A stretch of DNA of 64,000 nucleotides from positions 1 through 64,000 of the forward strand of contig JADLEK010000053.1 of NCBI GenBank assembly GCA_020846135.1, in the 5' to 3' direction. Under the pieces are notes generated by a model. The model saw only the letters and a list, made by a program, of their open reading frames with translations, was not told the origin of the DNA and made no database searches. Below are positions 3,586 through 25,339 of this stretch, in pieces; the first letter of the stretch is position 1; each line of letters begins with the position of its first letter. Source of the stretch: Gammaproteobacteria bacterium. GTDB taxonomy: Bacteria > Pseudomonadota > Gammaproteobacteria > Competibacterales > Competibacteraceae. Made by a program: the position numbers and the translations under genes.

Positions 3586-4823
3586 TTTGTCACCCTTTCC
3601 GGGACTGGCTTGGTCTTTTCAATGGCCGGCAGGATCGGCAGCGCGAAGAAGAAGCCGAAGTAGATGAATGAACAGATTTGAGCCAGCGTGGTGCGTTCTG
3701 GGGTGGTCGGCAATGCGCCTAGATAGCCCAGAATCAGGAACGAAATGATGAACGCGGCCAACACCAGTTTGAACGCCAACCCGCGATAACGGATTGACTT
3801 GACCGGGCTGCGATCCAGCCAGGGCAGGAAGAACAGCATGACAATCGCGCCGCCCATCGCCAGAACGCCCCACACCTGGGTTCCGGCAAACGACGGCACC
3901 GCCCGCAGAATCGCGTAGAACGGGGTGAAGTACCACACCGGGGCAATATGCGGCGGGGTCTTCATTGGATCGGCGGGATCAAAATTCGGATGCTCTAGGA
4001 AGTAGCCACCCATTTCCGGCATGAAGAAGATGATCAGGGCGAAGAAAATCAGGAACACCATCGTGCCGAGCAGATCCTTGACCGTGTAGTAGGGATGGAA
4101 CGGAATGCCGTCGAGCGGTTTGCCGTCCTTGCCCTTGACCTTCTTGATTTCGACGCCATCGGGATTATTGGAGCCGACTTCATGCAGGGCGATGATGTGC
4201 GCGACGACCAGCCCCAGCAGCACCAGCGGCAGGGCGATGACATGCAGCGAGAAGAACCGGTTCAGGGTGACATCGGAAACCACATAGTCGCCGCGAATCC
4301 ACACCGACAGGTCGGGGCCAATGACTGGAATGGCGCTGAACAGGTTGATGATCACCTGTGCGCCCCAGAACGACATCTGCCCCCAGGGCAGCAGGTAGCC
4401 CATGAAGGCTTCCGCCATCAGCGCCAGAAAGATCACTACCCCGAACAGCCAGATCAATTCCCGCGGCTTTTTATAGGAGCCGTAGATCAGCGCCCGGAAC
4501 ATGTGCAGGTAGATAACGATGAAGAACGCCGAAGCACCGGTCGAGTGCATGTAGCGGAGCAGCCAGCCCCAGTCCACGTCGCGCATGATGTACTCGACCG
4601 AAGCGAAAGCGTCAGCAGCGGCAGGTTTATAGTTCATGGTCAGCCAGATGCCGGTCAGAATCTGATTCACCAGCACCAGAATCGCTAGTCCGCCGAAGAA
4701 GTACCAGAAATTGAAGTTCTTCGGCGCGTAGTACTCGGTCAGATGCTCGCGCATCATTTTGGTCAGCGGAAAGCGCTCGTCAATCCAGCCGACCAGGCCG
4801 GTCGTGCCTTGGGTATTCGCCAT
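3582..4823 (-). CDS. petB: Ubiquinol-cytochrome c reductase, cytochrome b subunit
   Basis: A 413-residue polytopic membrane protein carrying both b haems and the quinol sites of complex III. Haem ligands fit His93 (YMHSTG), His107 (YLHMF), His194 (SLHVIA) and His209 (AHIIALHE). The C-terminal domain has PVWY at residues 295-298 in place of the usual PEWY, so the Qo-site Glu is replaced by Val. Such variants are known in some bacteria, so the protein need not be inactive. It overlaps petC by four bases and abuts petA, consistent with one transcript. Confidence 0.95.
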   Translation of the reverse strand: MANTQGTTGLVGWIDERFPLTKMMREHLTEYYAPKNFNFWYFFGGLAILVLVNQILTGIWLTMNYKPAAADAFASVEYIMRDVDWGWLLRYMHSTGASAFFIVIYLHMFRALIYGSYKKPRELIWLFGVVIFLALMAEAFMGYLLPWGQMSFWGAQVIINLFSAIPVIGPDLSVWIRGDYVVSDVTLNRFFSLHVIALPLVLLGLVVAHIIALHEVGSNNPDGVEIKKVKGKDGKPLDGIPFHPYYTVKDLLGTMVFLIFFALIIFFMPEMGGYFLEHPNFDPADPMKTPPHIAPVWYFTPFYAILRAVPSFAGTQVWGVLAMGGAIVMLFFLPWLDRSPVKSIRYRGLAFKLVLAAFIISFLILGYLGALPTTPERTTLAQICSFIYFGFFFALPILPAIEKTKPVPERVTK

Positions 4824-22755: not shown

Positions 22756-23661
22756 CTAAATCTTGTCCGCCACCCGTTCGCCCAGCAATCCGGTAGGCCG
22801 CACGATCAGGATCAGAATCAGCACACAGAAAGCAATCGCATCTTTCCAGGCAATCGAGATATAAGCCGCGCCCATAGCCTCAATCACCCCAAGCAGTAAT
22901 CCACCCACCATCGCGCCGGGGATATTGCCAATGCCGCCGAGAATAGCGGCAGTAAATGCTTTCATACCATAGATCCAGCCCATGGTGAAATTGACCTGGC
23001 CGTAATACAGCCCGACCATTAAGCCTGCGACTCCACCGAGCGCCGGCCCAACTAGGAACACCAGCAGAATCACTCGATTCACGTCAATACCCATTAACCG
23101 CGCCGCGCTCTGATCAATCGCTGCCGCCCGAATCGCCGTTCCAATCCGGGTTTTCTGAATAAACAGGTACAGCGCAGCCATCATCACTACCGAGGCCAGA
23201 ACAATCAGCACTCGCATCAGCGGTAAATACAGACCGAAAAAATTCAGTGTCGCTGTGGGCAAAATGTCATCGGGATAGACCTGAAAACGCGCCCCATAAA
23301 TCAGCATCAGGGTATTTTGCAGAAAGATCGATGCGCCCAAGGCCGACACGACCGCCGATAGCCGGGGAGATTCCCGCAATGGCCGATAAGCGGCCCGTTC
23401 CAGAATTGCGCCCAGCACCGCCGCCAGGCCCATCACCATCAGCACCAGGACCGCAATGCCTAAAACAAATCCCAACCGGTCCGTCAGCGCCAATGAAGTC
23501 AGCAGCGTTAAGCCCAGATAAGCGCCATAAGTGAATAAATCACCGTGGGCAAAATTAATCAGCTTGAGTACCCCGTAAACCATGGTGTAGCCCAAAGCGA
23601 TCAAGGCATAAATACCGCCTACCGCGAGACCATTGGTCAGTTGCTGGATAAATTCTTCCAC
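22756..23661 (-). CDS. livH: Branched-chain amino acid ABC transporter permease LivH
   Basis: A 301-residue inner-membrane permease. Typical LivH features are QLTNGLAVGGIYALIALGYT near the start, INFAHGDLFTYGAY, and the ATPase-contact loop TRIGTAIRAAAIDQSAARLMG. The start is taken as GTG 23661 because GGCGGA lies just upstream and homology begins there. The longer open frame above it is the remains of hicA. It is separated from livK by the hicB/hicA insertion, yet stays on the same strand as the other liv genes. Confidence 0.92.
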   Translation of the reverse strand: MEEFIQQLTNGLAVGGIYALIALGYTMVYGVLKLINFAHGDLFTYGAYLGLTLLTSLALTDRLGFVLGIAVLVLMVMGLAAVLGAILERAAYRPLRESPRLSAVVSALGASIFLQNTLMLIYGARFQVYPDDILPTATLNFFGLYLPLMRVLIVLASVVMMAALYLFIQKTRIGTAIRAAAIDQSAARLMGIDVNRVILLVFLVGPALGGVAGLMVGLYYGQVNFTMGWIYGMKAFTAAILGGIGNIPGAMVGGLLLGVIEAMGAAYISIAWKDAIAFCVLILILIVRPTGLLGERVADKI

Positions 23662-23678
23662 AAATCCGCCGGAACGAT

Positions 23679-23871
23679 TCAGATTGAAGGAAAAGGAACG
23701 CCAAGTTGCCGGCAAATGCTTGCGGCGGTGAAATCGTTTATTTGACGATGACGGGGAATAGAGATTCGGCGACCATTCGACAGGATTTTCCCAAATGGAG
23801 TGTTCACCATTGTCTCTCAATAACTGACAACCATGCTGGCGTAAATGAAGAAATAAATCCCGTCATTTCAT
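23679..23871 (-). pseudogene. hicA: HicA toxin pseudogene (nonsense codon plus frameshift)
   Basis: ATG 23871-23869 overlaps the hicB stop (ATGA). The reading is MK, then TGA at 23865-23863, then RDLFLHLRQHGCQLLRDNGEH and SIWENP. After a one-base shift near 23778-23781 it continues NGRRISIPRHRQIND and ICRQLGVPFPSI, to a TGA at 23681-23679. Together these match a HicA toxin of the MKR(R/K)DL...GC..LREG..HSI...PRH.EI type. The expected codon 3 is Arg (CGA), so TGA is a single-base change. Two separate lesions make a sequencing error unlikely. The conserved GxH is still visible as GEH. Confidence 0.72.
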
Positions 23872-24146
23872 GCCGTAACCGCCTCCGGTCTGACTCGGGA
23901 AGTAGCGGTTAATAATGAATGAATAGGTTCTTCAAGATCAGCATCCGGATCGGTGCAACCTGAATCCTGGCAGGGAAGTGATTCACCCAATAATAGACAA
24001 GTTTCCGCTATATCTACTAATACCTCAGCTAATAACCGCCTGGCTTCCGGCAGATTTTCCGCACAGGTTACGACGCCGGGAAAATCCAGCGCCTCGGTAT
24101 GAACGCCACCATGAACAAACCGGTACATGGCTTTATAAGTGAGCAT
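23868..24146 (-). CDS. hicB: HicB-family antitoxin
   Basis: A 92-residue protein with a partial RNase H-like HicB fold: YRFVHGGVHTEALDFPGVVTCAENLPEARRLL is the diagnostic region in three parts (strand, DFPG turn, and EAR helix). The C-terminal part is Asp/Glu/Pro-rich with no obvious DNA-binding RHH or HTH domain. ATG 24146 follows GGAG by five bases. It overlaps the start of the dead hicA. HicB normally neutralises HicA, an mRNA-cleaving toxin. Here the reading frame is intact although the toxin is broken. It sits between livK and livH inside an otherwise ordinary liv operon. Confidence 0.75.
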   Translation of the reverse strand: MLTYKAMYRFVHGGVHTEALDFPGVVTCAENLPEARRLLAEVLVDIAETCLLLGESLPCQDSGCTDPDADLEEPIHSLLTATSRVRPEAVTA

Positions 24147-24174: not shown

Positions 24175-24206
24175 AGCGGTTCCCCCAGTATAAAAGAGGA
24201 ACCGCT
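24175..24206 (-). terminator. Strong hairpin after livK (attenuator or mRNA stabiliser)
   Basis: AGCGGTTCC (24175-24183) and GGAACCGCT (24198-24206) form a perfect nine-pair stem with a 14-base loop, just after the livK stop. On the minus strand it is followed only by TTGA, so termination would be weak. It may protect the livK message and lower expression of the downstream genes, as is common after binding-protein genes. Confidence 0.55.
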
Positions 24207-24211
24207 GACGA

Positions 24212-25339
24212 TCACAGCTTCTGCAATACAAACTTGCCCTCAGCGTCCACCTTGTAGACCCGGTAAACATCGCCTTCACGGTCGCCTTTAGAATCGAAGG
24301 AAATCGGGCCACTCAAACCGGGATAGTTTTTGAGGTCCTTGTGCAGATATTCAGCGACCTTGTCACCCTCCGCAGATTTAGCCCCGGCAATGCCCGCCGC
24401 CGCTACCCGGAATCCGTCACCCGCCAGCACCGCCCAAATCGAGGGCGGCAATTCGTTATATTTCTTCTGGTAATCGGCCAGAAACGCCTTGGCGTCCGGC
24501 GTATCCAAATCCTGCGGTTGCGGCGGACTGAGGAAATAGAAACCCTCAGCGGCTTCTTTACCGGCAATCTTGACCAGATCGGCATTATTCGTGGCGTCTC
24601 CACCAATAAACGGCGTCTTCCAGTTCATCCCCTTTTTTTGCCGTAGTAATAAGCCCGCTTCCGGGTAATACCCTGTGAACAAAACGATGTCGGGATTCGC
24701 ACCCTTCAGCTTGGTCAGAATGGCGGTGTAATCGCTTTCCTTGGGTGTCAGCGCATCAAAAAATACTACCTCCACGCCCTGTTTTTTCAACAGCGCATTA
24801 GCTTCATCCGCCAAACCTTTCGCATAGGAAGTGCTGTCATGGAGAATGGCAACCTTCTTGAAACCCAGTTTGCCAATGGTCCGCGCCGCCATCCGGCCCT
24901 GCTCATCATCGCGGGGCGCAGTGCGGAAAAACAGTTCAAGGCCCTTTTCGGTCAGGCGGATCGCCGTTGAACCATTGGCGATTTGCGGGATTTTGGCCTC
25001 GTCGTAAATGGTCTGGCTGGCTTCAGTCACCGAAGAACCGTAAGTGCCGACCACTGCCACCACACCCTTGGTGGTCAACCGCTGCGCAGCCAACGATGCG
25101 GTACGCGGATCGCCGCCATCATCCTCGGTGATCACCTCAATCTGCTTGCCCAGGACCCCGCCCTTGGCGTTCTGCTGCTCGGCCAGCAACTCAACGATCT
25201 TCTTCATCCCCTGACCTTCGCTAGCCCAGGAACCGGTCAGCGGGGCCATCAGTCCGATCTTAACGGTTTCCGCCTGGGCCAGGCCGCCGCCCAAGGCCAG
25301 CCCGACCGCCGCCGTCAAGACTAATAGTTGTTTTTTCAT
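24212..25339 (-). CDS. livK: Branched-chain amino acid ABC transporter substrate-binding protein
   Basis: A 375-residue periplasmic binding protein. It has a classic signal peptide (MKKQLLVLTAAVGLALGGG, cleaved after LAQA). The type I periplasmic binding fold shows IGLMAPLTGSWASEGQGM, VVGTYGSSVTEA, FFRTAPRDDEQG and VAILHDSTSYAKG, as in LivJ/LivK proteins. It is the first gene of the liv cluster. A hairpin and the hicB/hicA insert separate it from the permeases. The ligand is probably a branched-chain or related amino acid; close relatives also bind amides or aromatic acids. Confidence 0.9.
   Translation of the reverse strand: MKKQLLVLTAAVGLALGGGLAQAETVKIGLMAPLTGSWASEGQGMKKIVELLAEQQNAKGGVLGKQIEVITEDDGGDPRTASLAAQRLTTKGVVAVVGTYGSSVTEASQTIYDEAKIPQIANGSTAIRLTEKGLELFFRTAPRDDEQGRMAARTIGKLGFKKVAILHDSTSYAKGLADEANALLKKQGVEVVFFDALTPKESDYTAILTKLKGANPDIVLFTGYYPEAGLLLRQKKGMNWKTPFIGGDATNNADLVKIAGKEAAEGFYFLSPPQPQDLDTPDAKAFLADYQKKYNELPPSIWAVLAGDGFRVAAAGIAGAKSAEGDKVAEYLHKDLKNYPGLSGPISFDSKGDREGDVYRVYKVDAEGKFVLQKL

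Follow-up and report, generated by a model that had tools for sequence, protein, structure and literature searches.

Between livK and livH of the liv operon studied here lies a Class 2 hicBA module in which the toxin gene, hicA, is broken by two lesions and the antitoxin gene, hicB, is open. The module was analysed in a window of 64,000 nucleotides, the whole stretch of DNA considered, from a member of the Candidatus Competibacteraceae (genome G000). With a probability of roughly 0.85, hicBA descends vertically from one old insertion and has been lost at least eight times, the window genome being an intermediate of this process. The case is one of clear but ordinary module decay, at an unusually old and fixed location. 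By what is known of the family, an intact copy would form a type II toxin–antitoxin pair, with HicA as an mRNA-cutting RNase and HicB as the protein that inhibits it. The module would have entered once between livK and livH, before the divergence of the sampled family genomes that carry this liv operon, and would have been inherited with the operon under selection probably so weak or episodic that losses accumulated. In the window genome, HicA would have been killed by a stop codon plus a frameshift, probably recently, and HicB would be left as an antitoxin without a partner, most likely on its way to being lost, since an antitoxin can be lost safely only after its toxin.

The features of the locus, in the order of transcription, are as follows.

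24212..25339, minus strand: livK, the upstream neighbour, encoding a branched-chain amino acid binding protein; intact and full length against relatives (PF13458, E 1.4e-62)
24175..24206, minus strand: 9-bp inverted repeat (24175-24183 / 24198-24206) between livK and hicB, read from the sequence
23868..24146, minus strand: hicB, small antitoxin of 92 aa, open; predicted fold matches HicB structures with Z up to 8.1
23782..23871, minus strand: N-terminal part of hicA, with an in-frame TGA at codon 3 (23863-23865)
23778..23781, minus strand: site where hicA shifts by one base, with four bases against three in intact homologues
23679..23777, minus strand: C-terminal part of hicA in the other frame (coding part 23777..23682), with its own stop at 23679-23681
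22756..23661, minus strand: livH, permease, with a GTG start at 23661 (PF02653, E 2.3e-45); start conserved as GTG/ATG GAAGAATT in relatives

hicB begins with ATG behind a GGAG ribosome site, and its TGA overlaps the ATG of hicA (ATGA, 23871..23868). The first codons of hicA are ATG AAA TGA, with the TGA at 23865..23863. The flanking genes livK, livH and livM are complete and in normal order. An earlier note on this DNA had described an intact hicB, an overlapping hicA whose third codon is TGA and whose frame shifts by one base, and a module placed between livK and livH in an otherwise normal liv order; the lesions and the placement were confirmed. In most relatives, too, livK is followed by a hairpin, whether or not hicBA is present; it has no T-run and so may serve in stabilising or attenuating the transcript of livK.

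The two pieces of hicA were compared with a group profile built from 26 intact HicA proteins of relatives. The N-terminal piece, with one TGA inside, corresponds to profile positions 1-32 (E 5e-14) and the C-terminal piece to positions 32-61 (E 2.5e-12); as these positions are consecutive, the two pieces together make one full-length HicA, which answers positively the question raised earlier of whether the two-frame translation aligns with the HicA family. The closest intact copy shares 82.5% identity over 63 residues and scored 41.1 bits against PF07927 (cut-off 27), a threshold that intact orthologues pass; the first frame of the window hicA, with only its stop masked, reached 14.4 bits, under the cut-off. 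No match to these hicBA proteins was obtained in NCBIfam, nor in profile searches of PDB sequences. There is no single open toxin frame in the window, owing to the TGA at codon 3 and the one-base shift, and as judged from its sequence this hicA is a pseudogene of the HicA family without a working product. Comparison of hicA with the intact gene of G028 gave a dN/dS of 0.12, which indicates that selection on hicA lasted until recently; the rest of the gene is still well conserved, so its death is probably recent.

In the predicted model of HicB (mean pLDDT 73, residues 85-92 of low confidence), three strands are followed by a long helix, one further strand and a short helix. The model agrees with the HicB fold, a partial RNase H-like domain: it matched the HicB chains 6g1c, 6g1n, 4p78 and 5yrz with Z of 7.3-8.1, against about 3.5 for unrelated entries, with a Foldseek E of only 0.006 and a HicB Pfam match below the cut-off. 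No extra or DNA-binding domain was seen in the model. The position of hicB upstream of hicA, the 92 aa of HicB and the lack of a recognisable DNA-binding domain place the pair in Class 2, which has been described as having a small HicB of 63-103 codons, no DNA-binding domain and hicB first (PMC10865869).

hicB is open over its 92 codons and retains the residue of each of the 16 invariant alignment columns. Against an HMM of HicB proteins from outside the family, the window copy scored 134 bits and that of the sister species, G001, 130 bits; the other full-length family copies scored 149-158 bits and the truncated copy of G026 137 bits. By these scores, the conservation of hicB has slipped in the window genome and its sister and is not tight. 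Between these two genomes the dN/dS of hicB was 0.25, whereas their livH and livK gave 0.03-0.04, and other hicB pairs about 0.1 wherever an estimate was possible. A frame that is open with such a value makes some constraint until recently likely, and constraint that still continues is possible.

The same site was inspected in 25 genomes of the family, the window genome included, that have a livK orthologue and the livH junction; most are draft assemblies. hicBA or its remains occupy exactly the livK-livH site in 11 of the 25, belonging to several genera, and hicB is absent from the junction in the other 14. When relatives were searched, hicB of this group was found in 10 other genomes (one copy truncated), each time between livK and livH. 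Both frames are open at eight occupied sites, and those of G000, G031 and G026 are at differing stages of decay. On a tree of livK plus livH, occupied and empty sites are interleaved, and a single gain needs eight losses, a count that does not change after nodes under 0.9 support are collapsed. The trees of hicBA and of the liv genes share the well-supported pairs G000+G001, G010+G030, G017+G059 and G018+G031. No other livK of this kind was found among 114 genomes of the class (search at E 1e-100); with no outgroup liv operon, the insertion is datable only to within the family.

The empty sites were examined with a 42-nt matrix of the hicA 3' end, applied to the sequence before livH and compared with 2000 shuffles per site. 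The last 42 or so bases of hicA were recognised at eight empty sites, in the right register and at the right distance before livH, the match being equalled by 0 of 2000 shuffles at each; the site of G002, from the same genus as the window genome, is one of them. In G024 a longer remnant of about 24-34 codons is present, which the protein profile re-finds with two stops. No clear scar was detected at the empty sites of G015, G020, G023 and G034, that of G035 gave a weak match (p 0.02), and the sequence of G029 was too short for the test. An old livH leader does not account for the segment, which is hicA: the same residues are homologous to HicA proteins from outside the family, encoded away from these liv genes. 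The main alternative to a single gain, many independent insertions into the same place, is opposed by the scars. The comparison with relatives proposed in the earlier note found intact hicA copies as well as empty sites, but most of the latter are deletion scars; an empty site, even in a close relative, is no proof of a recent insertion. A further idea, to which we give a low but appreciable chance, is that the hicA 3' end is now part of the livH leader and that about 40 bases have repeatedly been kept for a helpful effect on livH translation or expression. If so, a toxin gene would leave behind a useful regulatory scar.

The sites stand at several stages of decay. In the sister species G001 both frames are open, and its HicA lacks some conserved residues and falls just under the Pfam cut-off. 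In the window genome hicA is lost through two lesions and hicB is open. G031 has a stop near the end of hicA and an internal deletion in hicB. In G026 (locus L060, livK end at 2625 to livH at 3888) about 1 kb replaces hicA and the end of hicB; the gene it carries is for a methyltransferase of FkbM type (PF05050, E 6.6e-17) and includes a short repeat, QPAS, and no mobile element was identified. Only the hicA remnant is left in G024 and only the tail at other sites, with essentially nothing in G029 and G020. One module at one fixed site therefore provides a series from intact, through toxin dead and both genes damaged, to scar only and nothing, which fits a toxin that is broken earlier than its antitoxin.

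Outside the family, 34 loci with an open hicB and enough sequence were compared. hicA is broken in 11 of them (L018, L020, L029, L032, L040, L041, L042, L045, L046, L050 and L052) and was not found in two; the breaks lie at differing codons and use all three stop codons. Most first lesions fall within the first 27 of 61 codons, a bias that is weak once all cases are counted. At another locus, L044, hicB is broken and the start of hicA is also damaged. The asymmetry between the two genes is partly one of ascertainment, as the search was seeded with HicB. Sequence comparison shows a dead toxin beside an open antitoxin to be a common state in this hicBA group, not special to the liv site.

The earlier note had proposed that the toxin decayed while the antitoxin stayed open, which agrees with the two lesions of hicA and the 92 open codons of hicB, and that hicB might have been retained for a purpose. 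Retention of HicB after the loss of HicA, either as an anti-addiction factor against incoming hicBA or as a regulator of the liv transcript, would fit its open frame, the 16 intact invariant columns and the recurrence of open hicB next to broken hicA in 11 of the 34 loci; orphan antitoxins occur commonly, and roles of this kind have been proposed for them (PMC7192599). It is nevertheless improbable, although the best placed of the rival explanations. A need for hicB to carry the liv transcript does not hold in the 14 relatives that manage with livK-livH and no hicB. As a regulator, HicB is small and its model has no DNA-binding domain, so that direct repression of the liv operon by a protein of this predicted fold is unlikely. 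As a guard against other HicA copies it would lack a cognate target, as the window genome has no further HicA of this group; the best other match to the group profile there had E = 0.019. The slipped HMM score in the window genome and its sister also argues against retention. So does a calculation under neutrality, for which an indel rate was assumed: hicB would stay open with a probability of 0.51 at a divergence of 0.02 substitutions per site after the death of hicA, and of 0.19 at 0.05, so that an open hicB is likely while this divergence is small. With so little time since selection on hicA ended, and with that indel rate, chance alone is expected to leave hicB open. Nothing shows that HicB has kept a function in the window genome.

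An assembly error behind the hicA lesions is unlikely, and a hicA that is really intact and only misread has a very small probability. One of the lesions, a single-base shift, would fit an error, but two separate lesions stand within 63 codons, and about 15 neighbouring genes (around 6000 codons), compared with those of G002, are in one frame with no internal stops in their coding parts. The general error rate therefore provides no explanation, and the hicA profile score is lowered even after both pieces are joined.

Still less probable, and rejected, is a recent horizontal landing of hicBA in the liv operon of the window genome. In G002 the site lacks a module, and toxin–antitoxin modules are usually mobile (PMC10865869), but the identical site in several genera, the congruent trees and the hicA scar in G002 itself stand against it. 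The landing of a module in the liv operon, as the earlier note put it, was thus no recent local event. Programmed recoding, by which stop read-through plus a frameshift would make HicA conditionally, was rejected as almost certainly wrong: the two frames combined do give a complete HicA, but two recoding events would be needed in the window, and the lesions of relatives lie at differing codons, with TAA, TAG or TGA, while other copies are lesion-free.

The preferred reading, an old hicBA decaying in place, has parallels. As in Class 2 modules already described, the gene order, the overlap of hicB stop and hicA start, a HicB of 92 aa and a HicA of about 63 aa are found here; unlike them, the window module lies inside a conserved metabolic operon, has been inherited with it and has a broken hicA (PMC10865869). 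Decay of chromosomal toxins is documented by truncated or missing toxin genes among homologues, in many relatives for E. coli ccdO157 and pseudomonad xre-res (PMC7280312). Both resemble hicBA in this respect, whereas here a single fixed site in an operon shows several stages, 3' scars among them, across a family whose members are mostly uncultured. Orphan antitoxins documented in Klebsiella (PMC7192599) likewise lack a functional toxin, but the window hicB still adjoins its toxin remnant. Class 2 hicBA being already known, what is unusual is the long-kept operon site with its scars; no description of hicBA fixed in a liv operon across a family, nor of such 3' scars, was met in the literature searched.

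Minor observations were made at several loci. The livH ORF called mechanically (22756-23820) starts inside the hicA remnant, since the frameshift sets the N-terminal piece of hicA in frame with livH; an ORF caller can thus fuse the remnant and livH, and automatic annotation may give an over-long LivH. A distant second HicA-like sequence (L001, C3:6989-7138) is present in the window genome, with a Pfam score of 26.1 bits, under the cut-off, and an internal stop. The livH of the draft genome G034 (L079, 2704-3605) is in two frames, with the break at about residue 165-171. The gap from livK to hicB in G059 (L070, about 2626-2824) holds around 130 extra bases, whose palindromes resemble REP elements.
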